Assembly: GCF_001753245.1 (NCBI RefSeq)
Contig: NZ_CP017415.1
Span: forward strand, 372,001-436,000
From: Acidihalobacter yilgarnensis
Lineage (GTDB): Bacteria > Pseudomonadota > Gammaproteobacteria > DSM-5130 > Acidihalobacteraceae
Length of the DNA: 64,000 nucleotides
Direction: 5' to 3'
Of the stretch, positions 35,318 through 46,602 are shown one piece after another. A model generated the notes under the pieces. It saw only the letters and a list, made by a program, of their open reading frames with translations, did not search any database and had not been told where the DNA came from. Every line of letters begins with the position of its first letter. Positions within the stretch are counted from its first letter, which is position 1. A program made the translations under genes and the position numbers.

Positions 35318-35458
35318 ATGCAGCCTAGTTTCTTTGACCATCAAGACCGCCTTGACCTATTCGAACGGCTGGGAGATCCGCTACCCAAGCTGGAACGTAC
35401 GATTCAATGGGAAGCCCTTCGCGAGGTGTTGCATCCGGTGCCCCCGGTGGCAAGGTAG
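35318..35458 (+). pseudogene. IS5-type transposase, N-terminal fragment
   Basis: ATG at 35318 gives MQPSFFDHQDRLDLFERLGD and continues to IQWEALREVLHPV, the usual N-terminus of an IS5-group transposase; the frame then enters the IS3-type insertion and stops at 35458. The rest of the gene resumes at about 37088. Confidence 0.85.
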
Positions 35459-35514
35459 TTGTCGTCTGTCCGAAATGGAGTAAGGCACAGATCGGGGGCG
35501 GAAAGTTGGTGGAT

Positions 35515-36015
35515 ATGAAGCATTATTCAGCAGAACGTAAGGCTGCCGTACTCCGGAAGATGTTGCCGCCTTTGAGCCTGCCTGTAGCGAAGTTGGCCCA
35601 GCAGGAAGGCATTTCTGACGGGACGCTCTATCATTGGCGCAAGCAGGCAATGGCGAGGGGCGACATGAGTGCGGTGAGCAAGAGGAAGGCCGAAGGCTGG
35701 TCTGCCGAGTCCAAGTTAGCGGCGGTGGTGGAGACGGCCCTGCTGTCGGAGGTGGAGTTGAGCCAGTATTGCCGGGAGAAGCGACTGTATCCCGAGCAGG
35801 TAAAGGCTTGGAGGCAGGCCTGTATTGTCGGGCAACAGACCGCCACCCAGCAGAGGCAGACAGAGGGTATCCAAGCCCGCGAGGACCAGAAACGGATTCG
35901 TGAACTGGAGCGGGAACTGTGTCGCAAAGACAAGGCCTTAGCCGAGGCTGCCGCGATATTGATCCTGCGAAAAAAATTGAACGCCCTCTGGGGAGACGAC
36001 GCCGGGGAGAATTAA
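35515..36015 (+). CDS. IS3-family transposase OrfA (helix-turn-helix protein)
   Basis: 166 aa from the ATG at 35515 (GTTGGTGGAT upstream). N-terminal HTH (KLAQQEGISDGTLYHWRKQA) that binds the element ends, and a C-terminal leucine-zipper-like coiled coil (IRELERELCRKDKALAEAA). Overlaps orfB; the seven A's at 35970-35976 are a typical -1 frameshift site that would make the OrfAB transposase. Confidence 0.88.
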   Translation: MKHYSAERKAAVLRKMLPPLSLPVAKLAQQEGISDGTLYHWRKQAMARGDMSAVSKRKAEGWSAESKLAAVVETALLSEVELSQYCREKRLYPEQVKAWRQACIVGQQTATQQRQTEGIQAREDQKRIRELERELCRKDKALAEAAAILILRKKLNALWGDDAGEN

Positions 36016-37061
36016 CCCCGGTCCCGGAGCGGCAACAGTTAGTCGCATGGATACAGGAAGCTGCTGACGATGGATCCCGCCGGTCGCGAGCCTGCGCGGA
36101 AGCCGGCTTATCATTACGCACCGTCCAGCGATGGACAGAGGAGTCGGGAGAGGTGAAGACAGATGCCCGCACAACGGTCGAGCGACCGACACCCAACAAC
36201 AAGCTGAGTGAAGCGGAAGTACAGGAGGTGCTGGAGGCCTGCCACCGCCCAGACACCGCACACCTGCCGCCGACCCATATTGTGCCGCGACTGGCCGATG
36301 AAGGAGTCTATCTAGCCTCGGAATCCACCTTCTACCGGATCCTCAAGGCCAAAGGCATGGCGGCACGACGTGGTCGTGCGCACCCGCCCCGCAAGGTGAA
36401 GCTACCCACCACCCATACGGCCACAGCAGCCAACACCGTCTGGTCTTGGGATATCACGTACTTGCCGTCGCCGGTGCGTGGGCAGTACTACTATCTCTAC
36501 CTCTTTGAGGACCTTTACAGCCGCAAGGCGGTGGCCTGGGAGGTCCATACCGAGGAGAGTGGCGACCATGCCGCTGCGCTCATTCAGAGAGGCTTTACGG
36601 CGGAGCAATGCTGGCGGCAGCCATTGGTCTTGCACTCCGACAATGGCGCCCCGATGAAATCGTCCACGCTGCTGGCCAAGCTCTATGATCTGGGGATCAC
36701 TCCGTCTCGGGGCCGGCCACGGGTTAGTAACGACAATCCGTATTCGGAGTCGCTGTTCCGGACGCTGAAATACTGCCCGCAGTGGCCGGAGAGTGGCTTT
36801 GCGAGCCTTGATAATGCCCGGATCTGGGTGCGCGATTTTATCGCCTGGTACAACCATGAGCATCGTCACAGTCGCATTCGCTTCGTCACCCCCGCCCAGC
36901 GTCACCGGGGCGAGGATCATGCACTGCTGGCGAAGCGCCATGCCCTCTACGAGGCGGCCAAGGCGAGAAACCCTGCGCGCTGGTCAAGTGGCATACGCAA
37001 TTGGACACCTGTTGGTGCGGTAGATTTGAACCCGCAGCGACAGGATAAAAAGGCGGCTTAA
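35919..37061 (+). CDS. IS3-family transposase OrfB (DDE integrase core)
   Basis: Open from 35919, but the working protein is most likely made by -1 frameshifting from orfA at 35970-35976. Contains HTH_21-like and rve integrase domains with the catalytic triad visible: Asp in SWDITYLPSP, Asp in LHSDNGAPM, and Glu in NPYSESLFRTLKY. No internal stop, so the transposase looks intact. Ends 27 bases before the element end. Confidence 0.88.
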   Translation: MSQRQGLSRGCRDIDPAKKIERPLGRRRRGELTPVPERQQLVAWIQEAADDGSRRSRACAEAGLSLRTVQRWTEESGEVKTDARTTVERPTPNNKLSEAEVQEVLEACHRPDTAHLPPTHIVPRLADEGVYLASESTFYRILKAKGMAARRGRAHPPRKVKLPTTHTATAANTVWSWDITYLPSPVRGQYYYLYLFEDLYSRKAVAWEVHTEESGDHAAALIQRGFTAEQCWRQPLVLHSDNGAPMKSSTLLAKLYDLGITPSRGRPRVSNDNPYSESLFRTLKYCPQWPESGFASLDNARIWVRDFIAWYNHEHRHSRIRFVTPAQRHRGEDHALLAKRHALYEAAKARNPARWSSGIRNWTPVGAVDLNPQRQDKKAA

Positions 37062-37087
37062 AAAATGGGAGACGCGACAACTACCTT

Positions 37088-37975
37088 GACAGACGCCGGG
37101 TGTACAAGGCCTCAGATCCCCGCAAAGGCGGACGCCCGCCCTTCGATGCGGTACTGATGTTCAAGGTGCTGGTGCTCCAGCAGTTCTACAACCTGTCGGA
37201 CGATCAGACGGAGTTCCAGATTCGGGATCGCTACAGCTTCTGCCGATTTCTGGGTCTGAGCCCGGAGGGCCGAGTCCCGGATGCCAAGACGATCTGGGTG
37301 TTTCGTGAACGGCTCAAGCAATTGGCGCTCACGGATCAGCTGTTTGGCCAGGTCCTAAGCCAGATTGATGCAGCGGGCTTTACGGCGCGCAAGGGGCAAA
37401 TCGTGGATGCGGCCTTGGTTCCGGTGCCGTGCCAGCGCAACCGCCGGGATAAAAACGCCAGGATCAAGGCCGGCGACCCGCCGCAGGAATGGAGCGAAGC
37501 CAAGCGTCGTCAAAAGGATGTGCAGGCACGCTGGACCCAGAAGCATGGCCAGAGCCACTACGGCTACAAGAATCACCTGAGTGTCGACAACCAGCACAAG
37601 GTGATCCGCCACTACGCGGTCACCTCGGCCGAGGTGCATGACAGTCAGGTCTTTGAGCGGCTCCTGGATGAACGCAACAGCAGTGGCGATGTCTGGGCCG
37701 ACTCGGCCTATCGTGACCAGACCCGCGAGCAGGCGCTAGCGCGGGCCGGCTACCGTAGCCACATCCATCGCAAGGGCAGCCGCAAGCGCGCCTTGAATGA
37801 GCGCGAGCAGGCCGCCAACCGTAAACGCTCGAAGGTACGGGCTCGGGTCGAGCACATCTTTGCCCAGCAGGCCAATCGATTGATACGCACCATCGGCATA
37901 GCGCGGGCCGAGGTCAAGATCGGGATGATGAACCTGGTCTACAACATGCGTCGTTTGGCATGGCTGACCGGATGA
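37088..37975 (+). pseudogene. IS5-type transposase, main (C-terminal) fragment
   Basis: Continues the reading frame broken at 35451; about 291 aa are read from 37100. DDE transposase of the IS5 group: VYKASDPRKGGRPPFDAVLM, then KQRR-like insertion region, GYKNHLSVDNQHKVIRHY, ADSAYRDQ, and the C-terminal RVEHIFAQQ with the last catalytic Glu. Disabled by the nested IS3 element unless that excises. Confidence 0.85.
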
Positions 37976-38851: not shown

Positions 38852-38875
38852 GGCGTGCATTAAGAGGATTTGCAA

Positions 38876-39286
38876 ATGGATGATAAAATATCAGGTTCAT
38901 GTCACTGTGGATTGATTAATTTCGAAATAAAAAATAATCCGAAGTTTACTGTGAATTGCCATTGCGATGATTGCAAAAGGCGCAATGGAAGTGCATTTTC
39001 AACCTATGCAAGCGTAGATGAAAGCGATTTGGTATTTGCTGAAGGTGAGAATCATCTCAAAAAATACAAAGTCGAGAATTCTGGTGAAAAATATTTTTGC
39101 AGTGAATGTGGTTCACAAATTTATAACAAAAATTATCGCATTCCTGGCCTGTTTTTGGTGTTTTATGGAGCACTTTCTCAGCCGTCCAACTTTACGCCAA
39201 CATTTAATGTGTTTTGTTCGAGCAAACTCAGTTGGGTCGATGATATTAATAAAATAAAAAGTTTTCAGGAATCTGTTCAAAAATGA
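38876..39286 (+). CDS. GFA-family zinc protein (glutathione-dependent formaldehyde-activating enzyme-like), copy 1
   Basis: 136 aa from the ATG at 38876 (AGAGGATTTGC upstream). Mss4-like fold with zinc cysteines in SCHCG, CHCDDCKRRNG and CSECGSQ. Strongly AT-rich (many AAA/AAT codons) compared with the surrounding genes, a sign of recent transfer. Followed by a GCCTAAC attC-like start, so it is probably a gene cassette. Related in family to the gene at 46195. Real substrates of most GFA proteins are unknown. Confidence 0.82.
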   Translation: MDDKISGSCHCGLINFEIKNNPKFTVNCHCDDCKRRNGSAFSTYASVDESDLVFAEGENHLKKYKVENSGEKYFCSECGSQIYNKNYRIPGLFLVFYGALSQPSNFTPTFNVFCSSKLSWVDDINKIKSFQESVQK

Positions 39287-39371: not shown

Positions 39372-39654
39372 AGGTTTCGTTTTGTCGCATGAGGCGGGGC
39401 AATATGAAGGTTATAAAAACCGACATCAGCGAAGTCGGCCCATTGTTGTGGGTTGATGCGTGGCATCGGTGGGGTACGGAACTCGTGAATGCGGGCGTGG
39501 TCGAACTAGGTTGCGGTCTTGAGCGGCCGGGACTCGCCTGAGCGCGAGTCGCACCCTGAATCCAATGGAGAAATACGATACACCCGCGTGGTCTGACAGA
39601 ACGGGAGCGGCTCTGCGGTCGACCGGCGCCGTGCGCTTACCCGACCGTTGAATA
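39372..39654. repeat. 283-bp direct repeat, copy 2
   Basis: Second copy of 38432-38714, here directly after a GGGTCTCGTATTGTA motif (39353-39372). At 39654 the repeat joins, without a right-hand inverted end, the coding sequence of the next gene (V-E-Y-D-E-G...), so this copy replaced that gene's 5' part. The 45-codon ORF lies at 39404-39541. Confidence 0.9.
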
Positions 39655-39694
39655 CGACGAGGGACTGACGGCGTCTCAGTCGATCCTCCGGCGG

Positions 39695-41113
39695 TTGGAC
39701 GTCGACACGCTGAGATCGGATCTCTGGCTGCCGCTCTCGTGGAGCGAGGACAGCGCGGAGGTGGTGGTCTGCGATCCCGATAATTTGGCGCTGCTGAGCG
39801 ACATTCAGGAGATGCTGGATGTCGACGAGCTGACACTGCGCGTCGCCAGCCGGGCGGATCTGATCCGGCTGATCGAGAACAGCGCGGATCTGAATGTCGA
39901 TTTTCCCACTACGGCGGGGCGCACGCCGCTGGCCAAGGTGCGCACCTATCTTGCCGGGCTACGCACTCGCTACGCCGACCAGCGAACACAGTACGCGCGC
40001 AGCCGGACGGGTCTTGCACTGGCGCGCACGGGGCTTGCCTTCATCAGTATCGCGGTAGTGTTCCTGCGCTTGTTCGGCGGGGGCGAGTTGCTGTTTTTCG
40101 AGATCCCGCTGCTGATCCTGGGTGTGCTCGCCGTCATCGACGGCATCACGTGGTATCTACCGGCGCGGCGGGAGACGCAGGAGATCAAGCCCTACCCGCC
40201 GTACGACGTGCCGGAGGCGTACACGGCGCTGGAGGTGTCGGACCCAGGCGGCGCCATGCGCTTCGGCAGAAGCCGGGTCGTTGAGAGCGCCGGTGCGCTG
40301 CGCGAGGACTGGGACGCACTCTCGCCGGTAGAGAGGCGACGTTTCCTGGCCAACGACCGCACCAATCTAGCCGAGGAGCGGACCGTGCTGGCCTATCTGA
40401 GAACCATGATGGCAAAGGCGCGGACCGGGCTCGCCTTTGCGCGCACGGGTGTCGCTTTCGCCGGCATTGGCATTGGCTTCCTGCGCAAATTTCACCCCGG
40501 CCCCTGGTCGGCCTTCGACTGGGCGCTGATCGTCATCGGCACGGCGATGCTGGCCGAGGGGTTCCACTGGTACCGGCCGGGCCGGCATGCCGCCAATGCG
40601 GCGCTGGATACGGTCGGCAAGGTCAGCGGCCGTCGGGGCCTGTGGGACACTATTTCCCCCTCCCGGTGTCTTGTCGCCTCGGGACTTGATCCCGTGGCCG
40701 AAGCCAACGCGCCCGAGGCGCGGCCCGGCGTGTGGGCCACCACGGGGCTGGCGTTGGAGCGCACTACGCTCGCCGACAAGCGCAACGCGATGTCGCACCT
40801 GCGTACGGTGCTGGCGCGCTCGCGCACGGGGATGGCCTTTATCCGCACCGGATTCAGCGTGATGTCGGTGGGCGCGGGCCTGTTTCTCTATTTCGACTAT
40901 CTCGGGCGTACCGACGCGCTGTGGTCGGCGCTGTATATCGCGCTGATCGTCATCGGCCTGTATCTGATTGGCGATGGCCTGTATTGGTATCTGCCCGCCG
41001 AGCGGATCAAGCGGCGCTCGTCGTTCTGCGACAGCGGTTTCGAAATTGCCGACGCCGACTACAGCATCCCGAAAAGCGCCTGGAAGCGGGAGCAGTATCG
41101 TCATGACGACTGA
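39695..41113 (+). CDS. GspE/MshE-N-like domain fused to three RT-heptad DUF202-like membrane modules (5'-truncated)
   Basis: The first usable start is a weak TTG at 39695 (472 aa); the frame is open back to 39560, and homology to the next gene begins at EYDEG (39650), right at the end of the 283-bp repeat, so about 60-80 N-terminal residues were lost. The remaining N-terminal part (LPLSWSEDSAEVVVCDPDNL) matches the second half of a GspE/MshE N-domain. Three modules follow, each a helix with RT pairs every seven residues (RTnlaeeRTvlaylRT pattern) leading into a TM hairpin ending in WYLP or WYRP. Membrane protein, function unknown; expression is doubtful unless a new promoter is used. Confidence 0.75.
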   Translation: MDVDTLRSDLWLPLSWSEDSAEVVVCDPDNLALLSDIQEMLDVDELTLRVASRADLIRLIENSADLNVDFPTTAGRTPLAKVRTYLAGLRTRYADQRTQYARSRTGLALARTGLAFISIAVVFLRLFGGGELLFFEIPLLILGVLAVIDGITWYLPARRETQEIKPYPPYDVPEAYTALEVSDPGGAMRFGRSRVVESAGALREDWDALSPVERRRFLANDRTNLAEERTVLAYLRTMMAKARTGLAFARTGVAFAGIGIGFLRKFHPGPWSAFDWALIVIGTAMLAEGFHWYRPGRHAANAALDTVGKVSGRRGLWDTISPSRCLVASGLDPVAEANAPEARPGVWATTGLALERTTLADKRNAMSHLRTVLARSRTGMAFIRTGFSVMSVGAGLFLYFDYLGRTDALWSALYIALIVIGLYLIGDGLYWYLPAERIKRRSSFCDSGFEIADADYSIPKSAWKREQYRHDD

Positions 41114-42290
41114 CGCGAATCCTTATGTGGCGCTGGTGGAGGATGGCCTGCTCGACCAGGCACAGCTGGCTGCGGCGCAGCAGAGCGCGACCGCGCGGGG
41201 TCTCGATATGGAGCGCGTGTTGTTGAAGGATTGCGGCGTCTCGCGCTGCGCGCTGCTGACCGCCTTGTCCCGACACTATGGTTGCCGTTTCTTCCAGTAC
41301 GACGAACGCCTGCCGGTGCCTTCGGCGCTGTACGCCGGGCTGGACGGCAAGGTGCTACGGGCGGGGCGTTGGTTCCCGGTGATGCAGCTGGGCGAGACCG
41401 TGGTGATCGCCGCCGCCGATCCATCCAGCGAGGCGATGCGCGCGCAGGTCAGACAGCTCGTGCCCGCGGCGGATCACGAATTCCGCGTCGCGCTCAACGA
41501 GGATGTACGCTGGTATATCCAGGATTACCTGCATGCCGAGGCGCATCTGCTCATCGGCATCGAGCGCACTGGCCTTGCCTACTGGCGCAACACCATGGCC
41601 CTGTGGCGCACCAAGCTCGCCTGCCACCGGACCGGGCAGGCGCGGGCGCGCACATCGATGAAGCTGCTGCGCTGGGGGCTGGCGCTGGTGGCGCTCTCGA
41701 ATGCACTGACGCGCATCAATGCCAACGTGCTGGCACCGCATCATGTCGCCATTCTGGTGGTCGGCATCGTCCTGGCCGCCGTCGGCCTCTTCGACTACCT
41801 CAAGGTGCGTCGCTCGGGCATGGATCTCTCCTGCCAATCTGCCCTGATGGACATCACCGCCGAGACCATCCGCTTCACCCGGCGCTACCATCTGGATGAG
41901 GCGCCGCCCAAACCAGAGGACGATACGCCGCTGGCGCAGCTCGCCGCTGCGATCACGCACTATTGCTCCATTCTGCGCCCGGTTCCGGCCAGCAAGGAGC
42001 GCACCCATCTGGCGCGCGAGCGCAACATGCTCGCCGCGCAGCGGACCATCGCCGCCAGCCACCGGACGTCGTATGCGCGCGCCCGGACCGGGTTGTCGCT
42101 GATCCGTACGGGCGTTTCTTTCATCGGGCTGGGCATCGCCATGGATAAGATGCTGGGTGCCGGCCCTTACAGCTTTACGGATTACATCCTTGCCGGGGCG
42201 GGCGTCCTGATGCTGATCGACGGCATGCTCTGGTATCTGCCGGTCCGCAAACTGAAATACGGTATCGGCCGCGAGATCAAGGAGCGCTAG
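41103..42290 (+). CDS. GspE/MshE-N-like domain fused to two RT-heptad DUF202-like membrane modules
   Basis: 395 aa from the ATG at 41103, which overlaps the stop of the previous gene (41111-41113), so the pair is coupled. Residues about 1-140 resemble the GspE/MshE N-terminal domain (LVEDGLLDQAQLAAAQQSA, then FFQYDERLPVPSALYAGLDG and TVVIAAADPSSEA), but the RLG motif used for c-di-GMP in MshEN is not visible. Two modules follow, each with RT/RN pairs at seven-residue steps (ERTglayWRN... and ERTHLARERNMLAAQRT) then TM helices ending DGMLWYLPVRK. Same plan as the upstream gene. Function unknown. Confidence 0.8.
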   Translation: MTTDANPYVALVEDGLLDQAQLAAAQQSATARGLDMERVLLKDCGVSRCALLTALSRHYGCRFFQYDERLPVPSALYAGLDGKVLRAGRWFPVMQLGETVVIAAADPSSEAMRAQVRQLVPAADHEFRVALNEDVRWYIQDYLHAEAHLLIGIERTGLAYWRNTMALWRTKLACHRTGQARARTSMKLLRWGLALVALSNALTRINANVLAPHHVAILVVGIVLAAVGLFDYLKVRRSGMDLSCQSALMDITAETIRFTRRYHLDEAPPKPEDDTPLAQLAAAITHYCSILRPVPASKERTHLARERNMLAAQRTIAASHRTSYARARTGLSLIRTGVSFIGLGIAMDKMLGAGPYSFTDYILAGAGVLMLIDGMLWYLPVRKLKYGIGREIKER

Positions 42291-46194: not shown

Positions 46195-46602
46195 GTGAAT
46201 TCATACAGTGGGTCATGTTTCTGTGGCGAGGTACGTTACAAAATCAACTCTGAAATACTGAATGCGGTCAATTGTCACTGCGCTTTTTGCCGATCCCATA
46301 GTGGAGCGGCGTTCTCGACATACGCGGTATTTCCGCAGGCTTCTCTTGAGATCACGAAAGGTGAAGACAAGTTGACGTGTTTTCAGGCAGACGAGGGAAG
46401 GAAATATTTTTGTGGTGTGTGCGGCACGCCTGTATTTAACTTGAATAATCGATATCCGGGAGTGTGCATAATGTATTTTGGCACCCTGGAAAATGCAAAA
46501 ACGATTTCGCCAGCGATCAACGCCTGGTGCGAAAGTAAATTGGGGTGGGTGGACGCTTTATCCTCTCTCCCATCTACGGCACAGGCTGTTGGGCGGCAAT
46601 AA
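46195..46602 (+). CDS. GFA-family zinc protein, copy 2
   Basis: 135 aa from the GTG at 46195 with GAGAGG upstream. Zinc-binding cysteines in SCFCGEV, CHCAFCRSHSG and CGVCGTP, the Mss4-like pattern. Same family as the cassette gene at 38876 (AFSTYA, KYFC and the SKLGWVD tail are shared). Downstream CGGCCTAACGGC is reminiscent of an attC start but no partner core follows. Function beyond the fold is unknown. Confidence 0.8.
   Translation: MNSYSGSCFCGEVRYKINSEILNAVNCHCAFCRSHSGAAFSTYAVFPQASLEITKGEDKLTCFQADEGRKYFCGVCGTPVFNLNNRYPGVCIMYFGTLENAKTISPAINAWCESKLGWVDALSSLPSTAQAVGRQ

Follow-up and report, generated by a model that had tools for sequence, protein, structure and literature searches.

The locus lies on the + strand of the window, the 64,000-nucleotide stretch of DNA that was analysed, and consists of two overlapping genes, both confirmed as open reading frames. 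Gene 1 (39578..41113) encodes a 511-residue protein, collinear with its orthologues, in which an MshEN domain is followed by three DUF202 modules, each bearing a ladder of arginines; its proposed start is a non-AUG codon, ATA. Gene 2 (41103..42290) begins at an ATG at 41103 and encodes 395 residues, comprising a GspE/MshE-type N-domain and two further modules of the same kind (Pfam; model pLDDT 68). The stop codon of gene 1 overlaps the start codon of gene 2 at ATGACGACTGA, which suggests translational coupling. The initial annotation had proposed this combination of N-domain and DUF202 modules (3 + 2), with no ATPase attached, and both points are borne out: the Pfam matches exceed the curated cut-offs, and Pfam found no ATPase in either protein. 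Neither product receives a whole-protein name from NCBIfam or PHROGs.

Gene boundaries and N-terminal domains

The two genes had been placed at 39650-42290, and the pair itself stands, but gene 1 begins further upstream. Its frame is open from 39560 onwards, and the mechanical ORF list begins it at a TTG at 39695. Orthologous proteins remain collinear with gene 1 for 39 codons upstream of that point, including a conserved xxxEYDEGLxAxxxxLRRL stretch and, because these codons hold part of MshEN, we rejected the TTG as an unlikely start. Extending gene 1 upstream lifts its MshEN score from 34 to 41.4 bits (Pfam profile positions 10–82 of 90). The most likely start, as judged from the sequence, is the ATA at 39578, with a Shine–Dalgarno-like GGAG (39567..39570, + strand) 7 nt 5′ of it. 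At this position, about 7 nt past the Shine–Dalgarno-like tract, an ATA, ATT or ATC codon is conserved in 14 of 18 loci (the window, L005–L012, L015, L016, L030, L077 and L078). Five loci (the window, L030, L008, L009 and L012) contain no ATG, GTG or TTG between the upstream stop and codons 36–39, which lie inside MshEN. Gene 1 may possibly use a conserved, infC-like non-AUG initiation.

Pfam MshEN (PF05157) scores above its curated cut-off in both proteins: 34 bits for the unextended gene 1 and 36.5 bits for gene 2. In gene 1 the domain occupies residues 29–101 (39662..39880; E = 1.4e-10). In gene 2 the N-domain spans residues 9–149 (41127..41549) and the hmmsearch matches to PilB (6olj, 5tsg and 5zfr) and MshE (5htl) cover this whole interval; the best Foldseek match of the gene 2 model is also 5htl (E = 1e-4). 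By sequence and by fold, the N-domain of gene 2 resembles those of MshE, PilB, PilF and XpsE. Unlike those proteins, the locus has no ATPase domain of the type II secretion or type IV pilus kind in either product (Pfam search) and lacks both RLG motifs for c-di-GMP: alignment to known N-domains places NPY and DME at the two motif positions of gene 2, and the NCBI c-di-GMP_motif model gives 17.4 bits, below its cut-off of 38. The first reading of the sequence had likewise seen no RLG motif. A c-di-GMP receptor acting through RLG was rejected on the loss of both motifs and the subthreshold motif score.

DUF202 modules and their arginine heptads

The Pfam DUF202 profile (PF02656; cut-off 23.4 bits) scores 59 bits against gene 1, 58 bits against its extended form and 28 bits against gene 2. 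Taken singly, modules 2–5 score 24–41 bits and module 1 scores 17.6 bits. Each of the five carries a 42-residue array of the form R-T-x-(L/M)-(A/S)-x-x that leads into TM1 and is followed by TM2. In module 1 (39920..40153) six arginine heptads occupy 39920-40045, and a model helix of low confidence covers residues 117–166; module 2 (40337..40573; 41 bits alone) has six at 40337-40462; module 3 (40739..40990; 35 bits alone) has five, preceded by a degenerate first heptad that reads TT. The six heptads of module 4 (41565..41813) lie at 41565-41690 and the six of module 5 (42000..42260) at 42000-42125. In the gene 2 model, each of these two arrays is continuous with its TM1 in a single confident helix of 55 residues (148–202 and 296–350); for gene 1 the model is of low quality (pLDDT 54). 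The count of heptads differs from the five pairs per module, six in the last, that had been described, and the WYLP/WYRP-like module endings reported with them do not extend to module 4, which ends DYLK.

The seven-residue RT/RN repeat itself is real. Gene 1 contains 13 pairs spaced seven residues apart and gene 2 contains 9; shuffling each protein 20,000 times never produced more than 2. The spacing is also conserved beyond this genome, contrary to what the initial annotation had named as a ground for refutation: across 15 genomes, arginine is invariant at heptads 2–6 in all five modules, threonine occupies its position in 80% and alanine or serine in 95% of cases, and positions +2, +5 and +6 vary. 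The first arginine of module 3 is lost in every locus. At 3.5 residues per turn, the conserved positions share one helix face centred on arginine (Arg at 0, Leu/Met at −51 and Ala/Ser at +51 degrees), and arginine flanked in this way by Leu/Met and Ala/Ser fits the interior of a helix bundle or barrel, whether lumen or core. Overall, the arrays contain 7–9 basic and 0–3 acidic residues per 42. Each module has two hydrophobic segments, unlike the three-TM layout of Vtc1 and of single-domain DUF202 proteins. With the modules reduced to two TM segments, joined copies would keep their orientation, placing every RT helix in the cytosol.

The arrangement is fixed wherever the pair is found. Every complete pair (17 complete loci) has 3 + 2 modules with 6, 6, 5 + 6, 6 arginine heptads, and modules at the same position are 85–91% identical between genomes compared with 38–53% between positions; the modules therefore keep both their identity and their order. 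In 11 Acidithiobacillus and Igneacidithiobacillus loci the arrays are kept at 67–74% protein identity, and identity to Acidithiobacillus is comparable to that of aspartyl-tRNA synthetase (66%). A scan of 84,980 genomes, spanning all GTDB species and sensitive to close relatives only, returned 12 loci, all in these two genera. Gene 2 was found in 5 of 5 genomes examined of the window's order and in 2 of 2 of another order; a DNA pattern of four RT heptads yielded no additional copy of the pair across 274 genomes of the class, and tblastn with gene 2 gave no plasmid match. All five genomes examined from the window's order carry rusticyanin-like genes, each scoring below the curated cut-off, and an iron-oxidising acidophile is therefore likely; no such genes were seen in the other order carrying the pair. 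Acidithiobacillus species are known as sulfur oxidisers.

How far the repeat is peculiar to this locus depends on the rest of the family. The canonical DUF202 domain had been said to carry only one or two such pairs. At 25 of 30 DUF202 loci from a Pfam-model search we found runs of 2–3 heptad arginines—an approximate count, with a few rows in the wrong reading frame—which is only partly in keeping with that statement, and a module profile search found single-domain relatives with 4–10 RT heptads in a further 24 genomes of the phylum (the profile searches for DUF202 relatives sampled Pseudomonadota). Ladder length varies among these single-domain proteins: L034 (3049-3714), L048 and L055 carry 9–10 RT heptads, with ten in each of the last two. 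A repeat unique to this locus was accordingly rejected, as 4–10 RT heptads are present in single-domain DUF202 proteins of other families. As most DUF202 loci have two or three arginines seven residues apart, the seven-residue register is a general property of DUF202 and the array here is an extension of it; the (R)xxxxxxRTxxAxxxRT register precedes TM1 in the modules as it does in DUF202. The repeat can be defined as RTxLAxx, and members of the family carry between 2 and 10 copies of it.

What is distinctive is the tandem 3 + 2 layout and its fusion to MshEN. DUF202 proteins of the YidH/YidG type (PF02656) share the domain and the arginine register, with long RT arrays in some single-domain members, but those known have one domain per protein and apparently three TM segments, as opposed to tandem sets of three and two two-TM modules fused to MshEN. 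DUF202 is present in 43 of 299 genomes, only the window's genome having more than one per reading frame; in 11 of these 43, single-domain DUF202 genes lie as adjacent pairs in the YidH/YidG arrangement. The window's genome also has one ordinary single-domain DUF202 gene (NERTYLAWIRT; G000:C1:1407909-1408148), unlinked to the pair. In two genomes, RT-array DUF202 genes have as neighbours one gene for a sulfatase and one of the FGE-sulfatase (SUMF1) type (L033, 4308-7001; L081, 4937-7999). The literature search found no paper that brings DUF202 and MshEN together, and the 3 + 2 concatenation with MshEN looks undescribed, the repeat itself being already general in DUF202. The arrangement is real and conserved, and is a variant within DUF202 rather than a separate kind.

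Register match to the yeast VTC channel

DUF202 is common in bacteria, and the literature searched held no established function for it. YidH has been tested as a candidate D-alanine exporter and D-alanine accumulation was unaffected (PMC10299036). The titles and abstract openings of the DUF202 literature, from a search that most subscription papers fell outside, describe no mechanism for a bacterial member. The only structurally solved DUF202 assembly that we found is the yeast polyphosphate channel of the VTC complex (7ytj and 8i6v), and this locus ties bacterial DUF202 to it. Vtc1 is itself a DUF202 protein, and a Vtc1 query matched PDB chain 8i6v_A from end to end. Position 1 of PF02656 falls on Vtc1 K24, and position 8 therefore on R31. 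In all five modules of the locus, position 1 falls on the arginine of heptad 4, such that in this common profile register heptad 4 aligns with K24 and heptad 5 with R31. The Vtc4 residues K622 and R629 are likewise seven apart and aligned with heptads 4 and 5. The match depends on the Pfam DUF202 profile: the module profile alone matched no VTC chain in the PDB, and Foldseek with both protein models recognised MshEN alone and retrieved no VTC.

Cryo-EM of VTC showed a channel formed by five TM1 helices and lined by Vtc1 K24 and R31, Vtc4 K622 and R629, and four basic residues of Vtc3, with its narrowest point at R31, R629 and R709 (PMC9911596). Replacing the basic channel residues in any VTC subunit leads to loss of vacuolar polyphosphate, and Vtc1 K24A/R31A raises VTC activity in vitro while abolishing the vacuolar polyphosphate store (PMC9911596). 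The locus resembles this channel (Vtc1/Vtc3/Vtc4) in its DUF202 TM1 segments, in basic residues seven apart at matching alignment positions and in a total of five modules. It differs in having no SPX or TTM polymerase domain, in distributing its five modules over two chains and in its longer cytosolic arginine ladder. The VTC ring and its polyphosphate transport are known from a solved structure and mutants, whereas for the locus both are predictions. The VTC polymerase domain (PF09359) is absent from seven genomes with the locus, PPK is present in 3 of 3 genomes tested but unlinked to the pair, and no polyphosphate gene was seen beside the pair in the loci examined.

A proposed anion channel and competing explanations

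Our tentative preference, held at somewhat less than an even chance, is that the locus encodes a two-subunit channel for an anion or polyanion, in which the 3 + 2 joined DUF202 modules make a pseudo-pentameric 1:1 ring. The domain content, the fixed 3 + 2 architecture, the strict heptads of the orthologues and the exact arginine register with the VTC pore residues are demonstrated; we infer the 1:1 assembly, the pore, ion conduction, the substrate and gating. One copy each of the gene 1 and gene 2 proteins would form a ring resembling the five TM1 helices of VTC, with the arginine of each heptad on every RT helix facing the lumen to give six rings, each of about five arginines, stacked one on another. 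Two or three of these rings would sit at the membrane mouth of the pore and the remainder in a cytosolic helical funnel of about 6 nm, heptads 1–3 extending the ladder into the cytosol (42 helical residues would measure about 63 Å). Such a funnel would collect its substrate, either an anion or a polyanion, and let it through—polyphosphate as a first guess, then sulfate or phosphate—and the MshEN-type N-domains would serve in docking or gating rather than as c-di-GMP receptors. Polyphosphate is favoured because of the VTC parallel and the length of the ladder; the absence of the VTC polymerase domain from seven genomes and of any polyphosphate gene beside the pair in the loci examined speaks against it. 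Counting against a channel are the poor gene 1 model, the failure of both models and of the module profile alone to find VTC, and the raised in-vitro activity of Vtc1 K24A/R31A; the sum 3 + 2 = 5 could also be coincidence. For DUF202, the fixed five-module layout offers a concrete and testable structure in which one heterodimer would equal one ring. The most far-reaching form of the proposal strikes us as unlikely: a VTC-like bacterial polyanion channel whose five DUF202 subunits, normally separate, are joined into two chains, with a 6-nm funnel of stacked arginines and an N-domain of the secretion-ATPase type as gate, and by extension arginine-ladder pores of adjustable length (2–10 rings) in bacterial DUF202 proteins generally.

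The initial annotation had instead suggested a membrane signalling or mechanosensing system. Direct support for this is absent, the VTC pore-residue alignment points to an anion or polyanion pore, and we rank signalling as weaker than the arginine-lined pore. In a rival close to that view, the RT arrays would be coiled-coil rods that relay a conformational signal, or form a scaffold, between the membrane and MshEN, which would dock a pilus- or secretion-type or other partner, with no pore. Domains of the MshEN type do dock proteins in PilB and XpsE, and the fold matches here. The strict seven-residue period over 42 residues moreover implies a coiled bundle, because in a straight helix of 3.6 residues per turn the arginine stripe would turn by 100 degrees over six heptads. 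However, a simple coiled-coil core would not usually carry an invariant arginine at the centre of its conserved face, and the matching register is one that lines a known channel. Neither protein has an output or enzymatic domain, and outside Acidithiobacillus no conserved partner gene adjoins the pair; we consider a rod or scaffold unlikely. That the helices are instead positive tethers, lying on the membrane or binding nucleic acid or lipid head groups without a ring, is in line with the basic excess of the arrays but is very improbable, as a strict seven-residue period is not expected of surface-binding helices and the conserved Ala/Ser and Leu/Met beside arginine point to helix packing.

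The pore could also be built as proposed and carry a small inorganic anion; polyphosphate has a serious competitor in sulfate or phosphate, although as a complete account we judge this version distinctly unlikely. It draws on the sulfatase and sulfatase-activating FGE genes that adjoin single-domain RT-array relatives in two genomes, on hosts that include sulfur-oxidising Acidithiobacillus, on the rusticyanin-like genes throughout the sampled genomes of the window's order and on the absence of the VTC polymerase. Against it, no sulfatase or sulfate gene adjoins the pair itself, and a ladder of six rings seems excessive for a small ion.

The surroundings of the pair differ between lineages. A porin-like protein with no Pfam match and a DsrE-like protein are encoded beside it in many Acidithiobacillus loci (L005, 3807-5673; L008, 8646-10473; and equivalents); some of these loci have them upstream of the pair, others downstream and on the opposite strand. 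A partner identified by synteny was rejected: in the window's order the pair lacks the porin-like, DsrE-like and MarC neighbours that it has in Acidithiobacillus. In the window, ORFs resembling the glutathione-dependent formaldehyde-activating (GFA) type lie on both sides of the locus: one at 38870-39286, confirmed by Pfam and set in a low-GC stretch, and one at 46195-46602, assigned by sequence likeness only. Just upstream, at 35407-37975, are transposase-like ORFs, an IS3-like pair and a second element, recognised solely by likeness of sequence.
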